DNA of 32,572 nucleotides from Nitrospiraceae bacterium (GTDB taxonomy: Bacteria > Nitrospirota > Thermodesulfovibrionia > UBA6902): contig CP070632.1 of the NCBI GenBank assembly GCA_020356065.1, forward strand, positions 1,903,161 through 1,935,732. The letters are read 5' to 3'. The notes beneath the pieces are model-generated. The model searched no databases and was not told the origin of the DNA. It was given only the letters and a program-made list of their open reading frames with translations. Position numbers and translations under genes: made by a program. Below are positions 1-21,550 of this stretch, in pieces; the stretch's first letter is position 1, and the number at the start of each line of letters is the position of its first letter.

Positions 1-2988
1 TGTCATGGTGCAAGCCTTCAGGACCCGATCAGATCAGATTGTGACCGCTGCCATACTTCAGGAGGATCATCAAAAGTACTGTATCCTGATCCATGGCCGT
101 TTGGATTTGGATCGGCCCCTGATGTGCAGGTGCATTCCTCAACAGTAGTGGGTACACAGTATGGCAACTGGGACATGGACTGCATGACCTGTCATAATCC
201 CCACCTGCAGGAGCAGAATGCAGCATATGGGACATCATACGGAAAGTATATCAAGGAGTACATCTGCTTTGACAATTCAGCGACAGGCAGAGGAAATTTT
301 GAAGAGATAGTAGAGTTCACTGCAGCGACAGGACCGGGATCGTTTACCGACGGACTTCCTTATAATGAGAACATCTGTGAGATGTGCCACACTCTGTCTA
401 ATCATCATCGGAGAGATGGATTGGCTCCTGGTGACTGGGACGGAGTGCCGGGAAGCAGCACCTATATCGGTCATAATGATGGGGGACCTGATCCGTGCAC
501 TGACTGCCACCTTCATAATGAGGGATTTAAACCCGGAGCAGCTGGACAAAGCCATGACACACACTTAAACAGTATAAAAGGACCGGGCCTTGATTGCGAA
601 ACAGGCTGTCACGGAGCAAGTAGCCCACCTCTTTTTGCAGATGGCAATGATCTTACCAATACTACAGTCTGTGATAACTGCCACAGCCCGGGAGGTACAT
701 TTGATGGTGTGAATGATCCTCAGACCGGTGCAAAATCAAACTGGACAGATGGTGTGTATAACGGTAAAACACTCACTGCCGGTAAGGAAATGTGGTGTGC
801 CGGCTGTCATGACAATGCGCCTTCAAACTCAAAGATAGACGGCACAGGAGTGAGTGCCGGGAATATAACAGGTGATAATGCTACAGTTGGATTCTACGTA
901 ACCGGCCACGGAAATGACCCGGGGGTCAACTGCGTCCAGTGTCATGATGCCTCTAAAAAGCATATTGACCACTTGTTTACCCCTGTTGAGGATGTAGTCA
1001 GGGTGTGGGAAAATCCAACCAATTACCGCTTTTATGATGGAAAGGGAATGTCATTGCCCCATACGCGTATGCCTGCACCAGTACTTGATGATTTCAGGTT
1101 GTGTTTTACCTGTCATGATGAGACATTGTTTGACAGTGCAGACCTGACAACGAACTTCAGAATCGAAAATCCCCCGTTCAGCTCATGGCTTGAAACAACA
1201 TATAACCTGCACTACTTCCATCTCTTCGATTTTGGCAATTATAGCGGAACAAATTGTATCCTCTGCCATAATCCACATGGAACTGACCGACCGGTCATGG
1301 CAGATGCTGCATTCGCCGGTACATTCTCATTTCTGACATTTAATGCAGGTCAAGGCAATTATGTTGAACTGACAGACCCTGTGGACTGGCATAATCCCGC
1401 ACTGAATGCGGGAGGAATGATAACACAGAACGGACCCTGTTTCAACTGTCACTCCGGTGTGCCTGATGAACAGACCCTTGCTGCCGGTCTCGGACCTGCT
1501 GAGGGCGTTGACGACGGGTGGTATCTAAGGCAATTCAATACTCACTCATTTCCCGTTAACTTTGATGTTGATGGTGACGGTTTAAGCGATGCCGAGGACA
1601 ACTGTTCAGGAGTGATAAACGATCAGACCGACAGTGACGGAGATGGCATCGGTGATGACTGTGATAACTGTGTGAATGATGCGAACTCTTTACAGATTGA
1701 CACGGACAATGACGGTGTTGGAAATGTATGCGACCAGTCCTGTGATACATCTGTCCTTGAATGGAGATTTCAGTTCGGTGCAGACATGCCTGTCGGCGGC
1801 AGCCTGTCAGACAGAGCAGAGGCGCTCACACTTGATGGTAACGGAAACATATTTGTGACAGGCCATGCAACCGGAAATTTTACCGGCTCTTCTACGCCGA
1901 ATTATTCATTTGGAGCTGATGTTTTCCTGAGGAAATACGATTCTCTTGGTAATGTTCTGTGGACCGAGAAAGCAGCATCTGCGCTTAATAGTGATGTAGC
2001 AAGAGACATTGCCCTGGACAGCAACGGTAATATTTATGTTGCTGGCTATACAAAGGGTTCATTTCCGAATAACAGCAATCCGGCGGAAGGAGTAACATTC
2101 GATCTGTTTGTAGTTAAATTCGCTCCTGGCGGCACCATTTCCTGGATTAAGCAGCTTGGCACAGCCCAGGATGATCAGGCATTTGCAATGGCTATAGACA
2201 GTAATAACAACATCTATGTATCCGGATCTACAAAGGGTGATCTTTGCGGCACACTCAACGGAACAAGTGACTATTTCCTGATCAGGTTTGATCCCAATGG
2301 AAATAATGTGTGTGTTGATCAGTTCGGAACAGCGGATGCTGACGATGCACAGGATGTTGCAGTAGATAGTGCAGGCAATTCCTATGTTGTTTTTGGCACA
2401 TACGGCAGTCTTCCCGGTTTCACCAATATTGGTGATTATGATTCATTCATTATCAAGTATGATCAGGCAGGAAGTCGGCAGCAGACACTTCAGATAGGAA
2501 CTATGGGAATCGATAAAGCCATTTCGGCTGCCGTAGGAGCAGGTGACAGTGTCTACATTACCGGTACAACAACCGGTTCCTTGACCGGTCAGCAGACTTC
2601 GGGTTTTAGTGAGATCTTTCTCATTAAATATGACTCTGCAGGAGTTCCACAATGGACAAGCCAGAAGAACGGGCAGGTTGTTACCGTAGAAAAAATAGCC
2701 GTTGATCCTTCAGGCAATTCGTATATATCCGGTTTCACTACTGTACCTCTGTATGGAATGGATCATTTTGGAACTACTGATGTCTTCCTTGTTAAATTTG
2801 ACTCAGCAGGAAATTTTGCATGGGCCGAATCATGGGGTGGACTCTGGGCGGATCATGTCGTCGATATAGCACTTGACAATACAGGAAATCATTATATGAC
2901 CGGCTATACTGAATATGAATTTCCGCCGAATACGAACCTCACCGGTTATGACGCGATTCTGCTGAAGGGATCTGAAGTCTGCCCTTAA
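1..2988 (+). CDS. Secreted multihaem c-type cytochrome with TSP3 linker and SBBP beta-propeller (5' partial)
   Basis: The reading frame is open at the left edge and its first codons read Cys-His, the end of another haem motif, so the N-terminus and signal peptide lie outside the window. Eleven complete haem-binding motifs follow: ten CXXCH (first CDRCH at 40-54, then CMTCH, CEMCH, CTDCH, CDNCH, CAGCH, CVQCH, CFTCH, CILCH, CFNCH) and one CX3CH (CETGCH near 596-613). From about 1561 come Asp-rich thrombospondin-type-3 calcium-binding repeats (DVDGDGLSD, DSDGDGIGD, DTDNDGVGN). From about 1760 to the stop there are seven units of the type ALDxxGNxYVxG, an SBBP (PF06739) seven-blade propeller. The family role is electron transfer in the periplasm or on the outer surface; substrate and partner are unknown. 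The frame ends in a hairpin. Confidence 0.9.
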   Translation, partial: CHGASLQDPIRSDCDRCHTSGGSSKVLYPDPWPFGFGSAPDVQVHSSTVVGTQYGNWDMDCMTCHNPHLQEQNAAYGTSYGKYIKEYICFDNSATGRGNFEEIVEFTAATGPGSFTDGLPYNENICEMCHTLSNHHRRDGLAPGDWDGVPGSSTYIGHNDGGPDPCTDCHLHNEGFKPGAAGQSHDTHLNSIKGPGLDCETGCHGASSPPLFADGNDLTNTTVCDNCHSPGGTFDGVNDPQTGAKSNWTDGVYNGKTLTAGKEMWCAGCHDNAPSNSKIDGTGVSAGNITGDNATVGFYVTGHGNDPGVNCVQCHDASKKHIDHLFTPVEDVVRVWENPTNYRFYDGKGMSLPHTRMPAPVLDDFRLCFTCHDETLFDSADLTTNFRIENPPFSSWLETTYNLHYFHLFDFGNYSGTNCILCHNPHGTDRPVMADAAFAGTFSFLTFNAGQGNYVELTDPVDWHNPALNAGGMITQNGPCFNCHSGVPDEQTLAAGLGPAEGVDDGWYLRQFNTHSFPVNFDVDGDGLSDAEDNCSGVINDQTDSDGDGIGDDCDNCVNDANSLQIDTDNDGVGNVCDQSCDTSVLEWRFQFGADMPVGGSLSDRAEALTLDGNGNIFVTGHATGNFTGSSTPNYSFGADVFLRKYDSLGNVLWTEKAASALNSDVARDIALDSNGNIYVAGYTKGSFPNNSNPAEGVTFDLFVVKFAPGGTISWIKQLGTAQDDQAFAMAIDSNNNIYVSGSTKGDLCGTLNGTSDYFLIRFDPNGNNVCVDQFGTADADDAQDVAVDSAGNSYVVFGTYGSLPGFTNIGDYDSFIIKYDQAGSRQQTLQIGTMGIDKAISAAVGAGDSVYITGTTTGSLTGQQTSGFSEIFLIKYDSAGVPQWTSQKNGQVVTVEKIAVDPSGNSYISGFTTVPLYGMDHFGTTDVFLVKFDSAGNFAWAESWGGLWADHVVDIALDNTGNHYMTGYTEYEFPPNTNLTGYDAILLKGSEVCP

Positions 2989-8704: not shown

Positions 8705-9607
8705 TTACAGCTTCTTCTTTATTTTGAATTTCCTGACTAACCTGACAGGATTATATGACATTTTGGATTTTCTCAATCCCGGAACACCGAGGTCCTGTTC
8801 ACGGTTTACATACGTGTAGTCCTGTGCATCATGCTGAAGAAACTCCTGATTAATTACCTGATACAGTCCCGGAATATCGGTATTTGCTTTTTCCACATGA
8901 ATCACTATTGTGTCCTGCATCATTTGCTCGGCAAGGGTCAGCGCTTCTATCCGTTCATTAATTCTTATTACGCCGCCTGTTATATTCAGCGCTTCAAAGT
9001 TCAGTAACATCTGGAGTATGGCAGTTCTTTCTTTCTCCAGCCCGTAGAATTTTTCGCACTCCTTGACTTCACACCAGCTGTCCTCAAAGTCAAGGCAATC
9101 ATCAATTAAATCAGGAGTGAGAGGAAGGTATTGATATTTATATAATGTCCTGAATTTGTTGACCTTGTTTCTTTTATCATGATATTTTCTTCCTTTAAGT
9201 TCCACCAGCTCTTCAACGTTATATAAATAGTCGAAATGGTCTCTTGTTTCCTCAATAATAAAATCATCACTATTCCCGACATATTTATGAACAAAGCTCT
9301 CCGGCACCCTCTCGATACATGCTTCATCAGTCTGACTTTTTAACCAGTCAAACAATACGTCCAGCACATCTGCACTCTGAATTTCTCCTGCCGGGCAGAA
9401 AAAAGATTTCGGCTCAATGTCCTTCAGTATAATCAGCGAAGCATCAAGAAGAGATATTTTAATATTATAAGTCCCTTTGAATGCAAACAAATTTGTAAAT
9501 GTATATTCGGAAGCCTCTAGAGGATGTCTTTTTAATAATTCAGATATCTGCCCCTGGTGAGATATCTCAATCTCTTGAAATTCAGGAAAATTACTTATCT
9601 GCATCAC
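8705..9607 (-). CDS. DUF2156 (LPG synthase C-terminal, GNAT-like) protein
   Basis: 300 residues. The C-terminal two thirds carry family marks: VELKGRKYHDKRNKVNKF (about 135-152) and, near the end, YTYVNREQDLGVPGLRKSKM followed by NPVRLVRKFKI. The family (PF09924) has the double-GNAT fold of the aminoacyl-phosphatidylglycerol synthase C-terminus but here there are no membrane helices, so it is a soluble acyl- or aminoacyltransferase-like protein of unknown substrate. The start is either GTG at 9607 or the adjoining ATG at 9604; ribosome-binding signal is weak (GAG). It is first in an operon with the DUF362 gene and diverges from endonuclease V across only 46 bases. Confidence 0.88.
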   Translation of the reverse strand: MMQISNFPEFQEIEISHQGQISELLKRHPLEASEYTFTNLFAFKGTYNIKISLLDASLIILKDIEPKSFFCPAGEIQSADVLDVLFDWLKSQTDEACIERVPESFVHKYVGNSDDFIIEETRDHFDYLYNVEELVELKGRKYHDKRNKVNKFRTLYKYQYLPLTPDLIDDCLDFEDSWCEVKECEKFYGLEKERTAILQMLLNFEALNITGGVIRINERIEALTLAEQMMQDTIVIHVEKANTDIPGLYQVINQEFLQHDAQDYTYVNREQDLGVPGLRKSKMSYNPVRLVRKFKIKKKL

Positions 9608-12217: not shown

Positions 12218-12796
12218 ATGTCAAAGGGTGTGAAAATAGCGTTAATAGTGGTAGGAGCAGTTTTACTTTTTGCTTTCATGACATTCAGCTGGTTCAGAAG
12301 CGGATACGATAATGTGATCGCAATGGATGAGAACGTCAAGGGGAGCTGGGCTCAGGTCGAGAACCAGTTAAAAAGACGCTATGACCTGATTCCCAACCTG
12401 GTGGAGACGGTAAAGGGGTATGCGTCCCATGAAAAAGAGCTGTTTGAAAATATTGCGAATGCACGTACCAAATACTTTCAGGCGAATACCGTCAATGAAA
12501 AGGTCCAGGCTTCTAACCAGCTGGAAGGTGTACTTTCAAGACTGCTCTTGTTACGGGAAGCCTATCCCCAGCTAAAAGCCAATCAATCATTCCTCAAACT
12601 CCAGGACAGCCTTGAAGGAACAGAAAACAGGATCTCTGTAGAAAGAAAACGATACAATGAGGCGGTCCAGATGCTGAATACATATATAAGGACCTTTTTC
12701 GGACGGTTATTCGCGTCTTTTGCAGGCATAACAAAAGCCGAGTACTATGAGGTTCCCGAAGCTGAACAGGAAGTTCCAGCGGTTAAATTTCAATAA
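12218..12796 (+). CDS. lemA: LemA family protein
   Basis: 192 residues with AGGAGGG 5 bases before the ATG. A membrane helix at about 6-26 is followed by the LemA coiled-coil domain: NVIAMDENVKGSWAQVENQL, KRRYDLIPNLVETVKGYASHE, EGVLSRLLLLREAYPQLKAN and the ERKRYNEAVQMLNTYIR segment. The short cytoplasmic N-terminus and long helical domain match the family; function in bacteria is not settled. It commonly neighbours TPM/YgcG genes, as here (328 bases apart with repeats between), so a shared role at the envelope is likely. Confidence 0.95.
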   Translation: MSKGVKIALIVVGAVLLFAFMTFSWFRSGYDNVIAMDENVKGSWAQVENQLKRRYDLIPNLVETVKGYASHEKELFENIANARTKYFQANTVNEKVQASNQLEGVLSRLLLLREAYPQLKANQSFLKLQDSLEGTENRISVERKRYNEAVQMLNTYIRTFFGRLFASFAGITKAEYYEVPEAEQEVPAVKFQ

Positions 12797-12882: not shown

Positions 12883-13914
12883 ATGTCGATACATACAACT
12901 GTCATGAAACATCTTTTATGCATTATCGTGTGTCTCTCATTTATTAATCCTACCTTTTTATATGCTGATGATTATAAGCCATGGTTTAATGTGAACATGG
13001 GTGCAGGATTTGTATACGGAAACACCACATATCAAATAGGAGGTGATGTACTATTCAGCGAGACTGAGACGGAAACGATTCATTTCCCGTTAAGTGAGCT
13101 TGAGTTTCCGATTAGAGCGTACATGCTTACCGCAGGCGGTGCAATCCAGCTGACAGAGGACTGGTCTGTAAAGCTGAACTTCCAGAAGAGCATAGCCTCT
13201 GAAAACGGAAAAATGAAGGATTCGGACCGGGGATTCTGGCTCCTGGAATATATAAACAACCATGGCGCATGTCCTCCGCCCTGTCCCTATACAGAAACAT
13301 CTCTTGATATATACTCTGAAAGTGATGCCGAACTTGATGCATTCATGTTTGATATTAATATACGGTATACGCTGCCGGATAAACTCAATATCAATGAGAA
13401 AGCGTTTCTCTTTGCAGAACTGGGACATACATACCAGCATCTGAGCTATGATGTTAGTAACCTTAATCAGTGGTACCCTTCGCACAATGATTATTTCGGG
13501 TATGACCGGCCGCTTGAAGAAATAAGCGGGCTCGTTCTGAAATACCGGGTAACGTATTATATACCTTACATTCAGATCGGCCTGAAATCTGCAGTCACTG
13601 CGAGGCTTGGAGGTGAAGCAAGCATTGGATATTCTCCGTATGTATCAGTTTCCGATAAAGATATCCACCTTGTCAGGGTACCGGTAAAGACTTCCTATGG
13701 TGACCTTCACGGTCAGGCACTGATGGCCTCTCTTGATCTTCGCTACCGCTTCACTCACAACTGGTTTACTGAGTTGAACATGAAACATATGCGAATTAAT
13801 ACCAGTGGAACACAGGACCAGTATGAACTGGATACATTTACTGCCACTATTGATGAAAAGGTAAAGAGCCATCAGACATCAGCATTTATAAACATAGGAT
13901 ATGCATTCCCATGA
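12883..13914 (+). CDS. Omptin-like outer-membrane protease
   Basis: 343 residues. Signal peptide near 8-28 (KHLLCIIVCLSFINPTFLYA) then amphipathic beta-strands to a terminal strand ending Phe-Pro (INIGYAFP), an outer-membrane barrel. The strand order resembles omptins: GAGFVYGNTTYQIGG, SELEFPI, and the DxD pair D113/D115 in KMKDSDRGF lining up with OmpT D83/D85; D260/H262 in SDKDIHL lining up with OmpT D210/H212. All four active-site residues are therefore present. Omptins cleave peptides and proteins at the cell surface. It is longer than OmpT (about 297 mature residues), with an inserted Cys-Pro-rich loop (CPPPCP, about 130-135). No clear Shine-Dalgarno; an alternative start is M8. The alignment was made by eye. 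Confidence 0.7.
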   Translation: MSIHTTVMKHLLCIIVCLSFINPTFLYADDYKPWFNVNMGAGFVYGNTTYQIGGDVLFSETETETIHFPLSELEFPIRAYMLTAGGAIQLTEDWSVKLNFQKSIASENGKMKDSDRGFWLLEYINNHGACPPPCPYTETSLDIYSESDAELDAFMFDINIRYTLPDKLNINEKAFLFAELGHTYQHLSYDVSNLNQWYPSHNDYFGYDRPLEEISGLVLKYRVTYYIPYIQIGLKSAVTARLGGEASIGYSPYVSVSDKDIHLVRVPVKTSYGDLHGQALMASLDLRYRFTHNWFTELNMKHMRINTSGTQDQYELDTFTATIDEKVKSHQTSAFINIGYAFP

Positions 13915-13939: not shown

Positions 13940-14090
13940 GTCTCAAAATAGAAGTATATCCTTGGTAAGCCTCTTGTTGTCATTCTCGCAAGCGAAGCGC
14001 GACGGGAATCTATTGGGGCAGATTCTGATAAGCCAGAATAACGAATTATGGCAGGAAATGAAAATTATTAGTACTTCTATTTTGAGGTAG
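13940..14090. mobile_element. MITE-like element, copy 2 (intact ends, contains palindrome D)
   Basis: Perfect 15-bp terminal inverted repeats: CTCAAAATAGAAGTA at 13942-13956 and its complement at 14072-14086, 145 bp overall. AAGATG also occurs outside both ends on opposite strands. The centre holds the GTCATTCTCGCAAG...GCGACGGGAATC palindrome. No transposase; shares its layout with the element at 6827-7022. Confidence 0.65.
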
Positions 14091-17899: not shown

Positions 17900-20800
17900 T
17901 CAGGAACGGTTTCTTTTTCTTCTTATTCTGATAAAAGAGAAAATCAGAATTAACATGCCTGTTAAAAGAACAAACCCTGAAACAGCAGGATATTTTATTC
18001 CGAATACTAATGGTGCAAGCATAAATCTTGTCCCGGACTTTAACGTTTTATTGCTCCTGATATAGTCAGCCAGAAAGGGCGAATACTGATAGTAAAAATC
18101 GACAAATGTTCGCCCGATGTCATACGGGATGAGCCATTTATCCCTGAATTTTCTCAACACAACTACTTCTTCGGCCATGTAACTTCCATACGCTGCCGTA
18201 GCAATAAAGCAGTTTCCGCCCCCGCCGCCTTTTGATGCTATTGCCGTTCCGGTAAGGAGGACTTTCAACGTAGAATTATCAACATCATTTGTCAAAGTTA
18301 ACAGTGCGGTCTGGCTGCCGGTAAGTTGATCAGGAGAAAACATGACCAGCAATACCGACTGCCCATTCCCTGTCAGAAGTATGCTGCTGTCAGCAGTGGT
18401 AAATGCTGGTGACCCGCTTATGTCGAGACAGGTAATTCGTACATCACTGCTTCCGGAATTGGTCAAAGTTATTTCTCGTGTTAATGATGATCCCTTTGCG
18501 ACACTGCCGAAATCAATGGATGAGATACTTGCCTGCAGGATCCCTTCAGTACTTGAGCCCGGCTTACGATGCATGACGGGCATGGCAACATCAAAATCAT
18601 TTAATGATTCAACAGGGGTTGTCCCTGCCCACGTATCATCAATGGGGACCCTGATCGCTTTACCCGAAACTCCGGGATCAAGCTGCTGCATGGTTATATA
18701 TTTATCATCTCCCCAGAAGCTCGGAATTCCCCATGCTCTCTCAGTAGAAGCCCCGAGATTGGGACTGGCAATGTCTGCAATCTCCTGTGTCTCCCTGTTA
18801 AATGTCTTGACCATCGACAAAATGGAAGGTTGATTGCTGAAATCAAGTACATCCATAGTTACGATAAAATTATTATTGGACGCAAAAGCGGGGTATCCAA
18901 AGTCCAGGTCAGGGTTCTGGTTCGGGAAAGGGGCGGTGATGGAGCCATCTGAAATATCAAGGAAACCAATGGACCAGTAGCGATAGCCATTACCTTCACT
19001 GCAGAGATTACTAGGGAACGAATTACAGTTCAACGCGTCAAAAACGATTATATTCCCGCTATAATCAAATGAAAGAGAGTCTGCATATAATACCGTGTTT
19101 GTACTTTCTGATCCGTCATCCTGATAATCAGAAGGAGTAACCGGCACTGTTAAATCACTGTCACATATGAGGTCTAAAACATATATATGGTTATCATTTT
19201 CGTCTATTGATGTGTAGGCAAAAAACCGGCCATCAGGGGAAAGAGCCATACTCCAGATATTTCCCGTCGTTGTAATCTGCGTAAAGTCAGACCCGTCCAG
19301 GTTCAGTGAATAGATATTGTGGTCAACACCGACATAGAATATGAGTGTGCCTCCAACGTCAGTATAAACAGCAGGTTTGGTATAAAGGGGAGGTACCGGC
19401 GTATTCATAAGCATGTCCTGTGAGGGATCGTACCCGGTAAATGGAGAAGGAAACGTCTGAACATACAGTGAATAGGTTTCCAGAGCACCGAAAGGTTCAT
19501 CGTGAGTCTGATCGGTGGGGTACAGATATACCATGATATCATTTCCCGTTACCGGGTCAACAGGTGTTGGCTTCAGACCTTCAGGCAGTCCCGCACCCTC
19601 AATTACTTCTACCGCATCCCATGCTGCAGCAACAGCTGATACTTCCGGCGAGCCGTCACCGTAAAGGTCCTCTGCAGACTGGATGAGGGCCCGCCTTGCA
19701 TCAATAAACTGTGATGATGCCTGCAGGTACGTTGTTAATGCCCTGTAATAAATGTTTTCTGTTTTACTCCTTCCGATGCTTGTACCAAGGCTTTCCGTGG
19801 TGAGGCCTTCTGCAATGAGATACGCGGCCCTGTTTGGTATGCCACTGTTGATGTGCACTCCTCCCCAGTCACCCTGTTCTGTATTGGGCAGGTTCTGATA
19901 CTCGCTCATTTTTGCAGGTTGCGGGCCCAGTCCCGTCGCCGGATTTGCAAGGTCTCTCAGGAACGCTGGCTGGAGGAGGGTTATGTCCTCACCTATCTTC
20001 CAATCATCCCTGTCAACCATGACCGCAAATACATCTGCAAATGATTCATTTAACGCCCCGCTCTGGTTTTGATAGGCAAGATTTGCCGTATTCTCTATAA
20101 CCCCATGAGACATTTCATGGGCTGCTACATCTAAAGCGCCTGCAAGAGGGGAAAATACCTGCCCGCCGTCTCCATATACCATCCAGGTCCCGTCCCAGAA
20201 CGCGTTATCGTAATTGGTCTGGAAATGGATAATGACCATAAGATTCATGTTCTTGTTGTCCATACTGTTTCTGTCGAATGTATTTTTATAATAGTCAAAT
20301 ACAACCCTGGTATTGTATGCGGCACTGACAGCTGATGTATCCCATCCGCTTGTTAGGCCCGGGCTGCTCACATATGTCAGCGGGTCACCGTCTCCGTTGT
20401 CAGCGCTCATAATATAGGTGTCACCTGTTGCGCTGGGAAGACTGCTAATGGGATCATATGGAGGATCAGCCACCGGCGTGCTCGGGTCAACTGCATAATA
20501 AGTACCATTCTGCAGCCATGCATTAAAATTTTGACTTACAGCATTAAGGTCAGTACCAGTGGCCGTGACAACCTGACTATGAATGTTATTGATTCGATGT
20601 ATAACGGAACCGCTCTCAGCATTGATAAAGTATATCCACCGCTGATCACGGGCAGGCTGGATATCAATTTTATATGCCAGAATCATGGTTCCGTCTTTTT
20701 GTGTGTAATAAACAATCTTGTCTTCGGGGTCTGATATTCCTTCATGACTGATATGTAAATGATCCTTGACCGATTCAATGGCCTCACCGGATGATATTCC

Positions 20801-21550
20801 CGGTTCAGTATTCAGGTATCCGGGGGAAGGTTCGTAATGTCCCTGCATATAATAAACAGAATCATCTTCGCTAAGATGCAAAGATATTTCTTTTCCCCAT
20901 ATGGGAATCCCACGGTAATTCTGCTGATAATGAAAATGCTTCTTATGTGAGGCATCGATTTGTTGACGTGCGATGGAGAGTTCCTGTTCAGGGTCTGACA
21001 GTTTCAGAAGGTCACGGTTTTCTGACAGAAACCTCATCGCTGCTCTCCGGGAGAGAGCCATATCCATTTTATTCAAGGCCGTACCGGCGCTGAGCCGTGG
21101 ACCCCTGATTAACCGGAGAGTCCCATTTTTAACAGAAAAACGTACAACTGCTTCTCTGTAATTTTTCGTCTGCGATACAAGTTCAGCCAGGTTTCTCTTC
21201 TGTGGTTCAGTTAAACGGACCTGAGGCTTTTTTGATATTAATTGCCTCCTGCTTTCTGTAATCGATGTCTTTATCTGCCCGGCATTTTCAATAAATGAAA
21301 TGTTATCAACACCAGCTCCTGCTGAAGACTTAAGAGGCCTTGTACTTGGGCGAGTAATGTTATGTGAGGCATCAGTCGATGCACCTGCAAGAGCAGCGGA
21401 TCCGGATACGGAATCTGTGTTACTCCCGGCAACTGTCCATCCTGTCCAGGAGAGCACCAAAAAACCTGCAAGCAACGGCATTATCACAATTTTCCAGATT
21501 CTCTTTATTGACTGTTCCGTATAACACATCATGCTTATATACTCGAACAT
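17900..21550 (-). CDS. Secreted M4 (thermolysin-like) metalloprotease with propeller, ASH domain and CFI-box C-terminal sorting signal
   Basis: 1216 residues. Order: signal peptide near 20-42; FTP/PepSY-type propeptide (about 100-325); M4 catalytic domain (about 330-655) with H478-E-M-S-H482, E502 in LNESFADV and the [16 protein letters not shown] block (H566); a TolB/WD-like propeller (about 690-1000; [24 protein letters not shown]); an ASH/choice-of-anchor D domain ([28 protein letters not shown]); then [16 protein letters not shown] at 1108-1123, a hydrophobic helix and the basic end RIRRKRNRS, the CFI-box-CTERM architecture. It presumably digests extracellular protein while surface-held. 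Convergent with the AsmA-like gene, 18 bases apart. The start at 21550 lacks a Shine-Dalgarno; the paired ATGs at about 21530 are alternatives. Confidence 0.92.

Follow-up and report, generated by a model that had tools for sequence, protein, structure and literature searches.

The gene at positions 12883-13914 on the plus strand of the window (the whole 32,572-nucleotide stretch of DNA analysed, from contig CP070632.1 of a Nitrospiraceae bacterium) very probably encodes an outer-membrane protease related to OmpT, from a little-described, patchily distributed branch that spans several phyla and in which the cutting site has been kept and the target pocket changed. Omptins (MEROPS A26) have mostly been characterised in gamma-proteobacterial pathogens and plant symbionts, and have been studied almost solely as surface proteases of animal- or plant-associated bacteria. 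The open reading frame is intact, codes for 343 amino acids (aa) and is present in a single copy in the host genome (a single contig of 3.17 Mb); the opposite strand, read in the same frame, is interrupted by stops. Because the relatives start at the residue corresponding to Met8, which is also where the match of the family profile to the genome sets in (window position 12904), the true start of the gene is probably 12904. Judged by eye from the sequence, the N-terminus resembles a signal peptide (MKHLLCIIVCLSFINPTFLYA, followed by DD), which looks likely to end near Ala28. Promoter and terminator scans at the locus gave nothing above shuffles. The features of the locus are as follows.

12883..13914 (+): omptin-family outer-membrane protease gene, 343 aa (open reading frame, PF01278, profile match to OmpT/Pla, barrel model)
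12904..12966 (+): putative signal peptide, running from Met8 to roughly Ala28 (sequence reading; the family alignment begins at the same Met)
13030..13032 (+): Tyr50 codon, at the position of the OmpT S1 acid Glu27 (Tyr in 28/29 rows, Phe in 1/29)
13219..13227 (+): D113-S114-D115 codons, aligned with OmpT D83-x-D85 (Asp pair in 29/29 rows; located where strand 3 of the model ends)
13234..13302 (+): long L2 loop, residues 118-140, which carries the CPPPC pair (Cys130 and Cys134) (loop lengths and Cys counts)
13306..13326 (+): D142-I-Y-S-E-S-D148 motif replacing the omptin D-x-S-x-H (IYSESD near-invariant in 29 rows)
13654..13668 (+): D258-K-D260-I-H262 codons, aligned with OmpT D208, D210 and H212 (alignment; located where strand 7 of the model ends)
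12218..12796 (+): lemA, the gene upstream, listed for context only (PF04011, E 4e-59)

The preliminary description had claimed an omptin-type protein with D113/D115 in KMKDSD and D260/H262 in DKDIH, both of which are present as described, and had proposed a comparison with PF01278 and a structure model as checks; each of these points to the omptins. The Pfam Omptin model (PF01278) matches the window protein with 30.8 bits (E 2e-7; curated cut-off 22.6) and also matches all 29 of the aligned sequences (E <= 0.001). Against the PDB, a profile built from 12 relatives retrieves Pla and OmpT at E values of 1e-10 to 6e-8, and the 29-sequence profile does so at 6e-21 for Pla to 9e-16 for OmpT, the two active-site motifs lining up, while hhalign against OmpT of E. 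coli K-12 gives a probability of 98.2%. The AlphaFold2 model (29-row alignment; mean pLDDT 90.4, pTM 0.84) is a barrel of ten strands (residues 34-58, 63-89, 94-116, 141-163, 174-197, 212-237, 242-262, 269-289, 294-315 and 318-342, the third given by DSSP as two pieces), whose best solved matches are OmpT and Pla. The first ten Foldseek rows are all omptins, and VIA-align superposes the model on OmpT, Pla and pOmpT with Z scores of 26.8-30.1 and an rmsd of 2.0-2.8 A over 259-288 residues, the next fold after the omptins being OpcA (Z 17.4). In the model, the outer end of strand 3 carries D113/D115 and that of strand 7 carries D260/H262, the topological places of the OmpT pairs. Because the PF01278 match, the fold and the catalytic residues are all present, the window protein is an omptin in the broad sense of the family (MEROPS A26 / PF01278).

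The same comparisons place it outside the classical OmpT/Pla group, because its sequence identity, E27, S99/H101 and lipid-A site all depart from that group. Classical members are more than 50% identical to one another (PMC3048539), whereas structural alignments of the window protein with the solved omptins OmpT, Pla and pOmpT give 16-20%. Equivalents of D83, D85, D210, H212, D208 and S40 are shared with OmpT, OmpP, Pla and the rhizobial omptins, as are the ten-strand barrel and the PF01278 match; unlike the classical omptins, the window protein has Tyr for E27, has not kept S99/H101 or R138/R175, and has a longer L2 with a Cys pair. In L4, it is without the two-residue insertion of OmpT and carries an Arg at the position of Pla Arg211.

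OmpT residues were mapped onto the 29-row alignment, to which the following counts refer. In omptins, water is activated by the D83-D85 pair together with the H212-D210 dyad, the S1 pocket is lined by E27 and D208, and S1' by D97 (PMC11410778). HMMER, hhalign and MAFFT all align D113, D115, D260 and H262 with these four catalytic residues, which are conserved in 29/29 (D83), 29/29 (D85), 28/29 (D210) and 28/29 (H212) rows; the S1 acid D208 (Asp258 here) and S40 are each found in all 29. The catalytic residues have thus been kept in 28-29 of 29 rows across several phyla, while mean column identity elsewhere is 33%. The position of E27 is held by Tyr in 28 rows (Tyr50 in the window protein) and by Phe in the remaining row. 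Within the near-invariant IYSESD, which has no His in any of the 29 rows, a Tyr falls at the position of S99 and a Glu at that of H101, in a register that is certain only to within 1-2 residues. The D97 position is occupied by Asp in 20/29 rows, including Asp142 of the window protein. Among other omptins, OmpP and one from Pantoea retain both E27 and S-x-H, and one from Rhizobium retains S-x-H. Compensation of the lost E27 by the neighbouring Glu72 was considered and dropped, as the inferred hairpin register (turn at about 59-62) sets Tyr50 opposite Ser71, with Glu72 on the other face. Lipid A is bound in Pla by R138 and R171, the latter being the counterpart of R175 (PMC7696990); R138 and R175 correspond to His186 and Thr224 in the window protein, and both columns are unconserved in the branch. 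The host genome contains lpxC and therefore should make lipid A, although the known lipid-A arginines are absent from its omptin.

A long Cys-Pro-rich extra loop had also been reported and is real: 27 residues, including CPPPC, separate the D-x-D-R motif from YSESD. The corresponding loop has 28-29 residues in L024, L025 and L027 and 8-24 in other rows, with 31-38 in Omnitrophota. Two cysteines spaced 2-4 residues apart (CPPPC, CPYC, CDPDRC, CSPNKC, CPPTLC) occur in the window protein, L022, L024, L025 and L027, and in each they are the sole cysteines of the mature protein, which makes a Cys130-Cys134 disulfide likely. Judging from loop lengths and cysteine counts, the Cys-Pro loop is a trait of near relatives and not of the whole branch. 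The further proposal, that of an environmental omptin whose cleavage preference was altered by this insert, holds for the omptin, its four catalytic residues and the environmental Nitrospirota host; the effect ascribed to the insert gains no support here, the insert being found only in the closest relatives. The replacement of E27 by Tyr50 and the branch-wide loss of S99/H101 would be stronger ground for an altered preference.

Taken together, the window protein is likely to be an active outer-membrane endoprotease of omptin type with a shifted specificity. The precursor would be exported and would fold as a ten-strand barrel, in which Asp113/Asp115 (strand 3) and Asp260/His262 (strand 7) would come together at the outer mouth; the water molecule that they activate there would cleave peptides arriving at the cell surface. 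Asp258 would retain an acid in the S1 pocket, while Tyr50 in place of Glu27, the rebuilt S1' side (IYSESD for D-x-S-x-H) and a probably disulfide-clamped L2 would relax or shift the strict dibasic preference of OmpT; such an altered specificity is expected from the residue changes. As to its role, it may be conjectured that in a free-living community the enzyme processes surface proteins or cationic peptides, or clears them away. Pla activity requires S99 and H101 (PMC7696990), so the lack of equivalents here counts against activity, as do Arg116 in place of W86, the Trp found directly after the second Asp in 27/29 rows and exchanged for Arg in the window protein only, and the existence of catalytically dead relatives. 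In one of these (L030:4993-6021, from a PVC group MAG) the D210/H212 dyad is replaced by Gly and Trp, and the protein also matches Pom, which makes L030 a possible intermediate between the two families. In the other, a Spirochaetes MAG (L042:5863-9163) carries three tandem omptin genes, the middle copy having KESGW for KDSDW and DDY for DDH and its neighbours keeping the residues.

An ordinary omptin, with the fold, the catalysis and the basic (Arg/Lys) cleavage preference of OmpT and with neutral changes in the pocket, is a serious competitor to which somewhat less than an even chance is given. The invariance of D208 and the partly kept D97 are what such an enzyme would show; however, one of the two acids of the S1 floor (E27; PMC11410778) has become Tyr almost throughout the branch, and S99/H101 are absent.

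An omptin fold that no longer acts as a protease, being instead a pore, an adhesin or a structural barrel like Pom whose active-site residues were kept by ancestry, is improbable. The Pom family (Protochlamydia outer membrane protein, PF17251) is described as pore-forming. In a congener of the host (G001, L068:480-1430), the slot between lemA and the DUF3786 gene holds a 316-aa Pom-family barrel instead of the omptin (PF17251 E 1.8e-66); this barrel is distantly homologous to the omptin family (hhalign E 6e-10) and keeps the D-S-D motif common to both, and 4/29 rows of the branch match PF17251. A limited similarity between Pom and omptins has been noted before (PMC4827864). The loss of the dyad or of the Asp pair in L030 and in the middle copy of L042, together with the Trp86 to Arg116 change and the loss of S99/H101 in the window protein, would also fit a barrel without proteolytic function. 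The congener's Pom protein lacks the DxDxH that the window protein has, and the latter scores 12.5 bits against PF17251 (curated cut-off 22.4). Against this reading, the four catalytic residues and D208 have persisted in the window protein and in 28-29 of 29 rows despite identities of 25-46%, which is hard to explain without selection for catalysis. That the resemblance is superficial, an unrelated outer-membrane barrel with D-x-D and D-x-D-x-H motifs arising by chance, is very improbable: the single window sequence does match several barrel families weakly in the Pfam search and does not reach OmpT when phmmer is run with it against the PDB, but profile searches succeed in both directions, PF01278 recognises every row, omptins come well ahead of other barrels in the fold comparison, and conservation is concentrated at the active site.

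A scan of genome contigs with the single sequence found no relative, and a profile scan of the same kind found 29 loci. By record title, which for MAGs may mislead through contamination, these belong to Nitrospirae/Thermodesulfovibrionia, Deltaproteobacteria, Desulfobacterales, Desulfuromonadales, Spirochaetes, Aerophobetes, Omnitrophota, the PVC group, Brocadiaceae and Halanaerobium. PF01278 was detected in at least 11 of 230 genomes of the host's class and at least 11 of 296 in a phylum sample, counts that are lower bounds since the window's own gene is missed at E <= 0.001; with the family profile, the gene was found in 6/37 genomes of the host's family and 2/4 of its genus. In a tree, 30 environmental rows stand apart from OmpT, OmpP, the Pantoea and Rhizobium omptins and two Nitrospira-type rows (support 91/90) with phyla intermixed, the deep placement being unsure because of long branches (Rhizobium, Halanaerobium). 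The patchiness and the mixing of phyla suggest horizontal transfer and loss within the branch, and in the close pair L021/L022 the values of dN (0.097) and dS (0.341) indicate purifying selection. A tblastn search of plasmids and phages with the window protein gave no match and viral contigs searched with the 29-row profile gave no relative, so there is no sign of phage carriage of the branch; OmpT itself is present on plasmid and coliphage records.

The preliminary description placed the protein outside the usual host group, which is correct with respect to the characterised omptins (enterobacterial, rhizobial); PF01278, however, already covers genes of this sort, and omptins are known from annotation in Fusobacterium (PMC6486245) and from modelling in Leptospira (PMC5406399). 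Omptins have been described as spread by horizontal transfer among animal- and plant-associated bacteria (PMC3048539); no description of the present branch was found in the open-access papers searched, subscription papers lying mostly outside the search. A broader and rather doubtful reading is that free-living anaerobes of several phyla share a branch of omptins with a rebuilt pocket, in which Glu27 has given way to Tyr and both S99/H101 and the lipid-A arginines are missing; this branch would act on non-dibasic targets, possibly independently of LPS, and stand between the catalytic omptins and Pom, so that omptins would not be host-interaction proteases by origin. A divergent branch in free-living anaerobes, its catalytic residues intact but those for specificity and lipid A altered, would reveal which residues are truly required for catalysis and how omptins are used where no host is involved, and it may connect the omptins to the Pom barrels. 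Two further observations concern relatives: a third omptin-like group in Nitrospira-type genomes (L055-L057) carries the motifs DDDY and DIH, has Trp in place of E27 and scores near or just over the PF01278 cut-off, and an omptin from a Desulfobacterales MAG (L028:5578-6864) has about 140 extra N-terminal residues before the barrel.

The omptin gene is preceded by a TPM-domain gene and lemA and followed by a DUF3786 gene and an AsmA gene. Adjacency of lemA and an omptin was observed in G000, in G002 (a genome of the same genus as the host), in G020 and in G028, where the pair lies at the edge of a contig, and is confined to two genera. A dedicated partnership was rejected, as lemA is widespread (34/37 genomes of the family) and mostly has no omptin beside it; the 20 neighbours that were scanned vary over the branch, with no conserved operon partner among them. 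In single cases, the omptin follows lpxI (L021) or precedes an LptF/LptG gene (a Halanaerobium MAG). Just downstream of the window omptin (13942-14086) lies a perfect inverted repeat whose 15-nt arms enclose 115 nt. A partial copy (78%) occurs at one other place in the genome, and the repeat is perhaps the remnant of a small mobile element. A few genes from the omptin, a protein with a phosphatidylglycerol lysyltransferase C-terminal domain (PF09924), a domain known from cationic-peptide resistance proteins, is encoded at 8705-9607 (minus strand). The window also encodes a thermolysin-type (M4) metalloprotease of 1216 aa (17900-21550, minus strand), which has an Ig-like domain and, at its C-terminus, a CFI-box, and is a probable second exported protease nearby. 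A protein of 954 aa (124-2988, plus strand) combines multi-haem matches of the cytochrome c7/MtrC-like kind with SBBP beta-propeller repeats.
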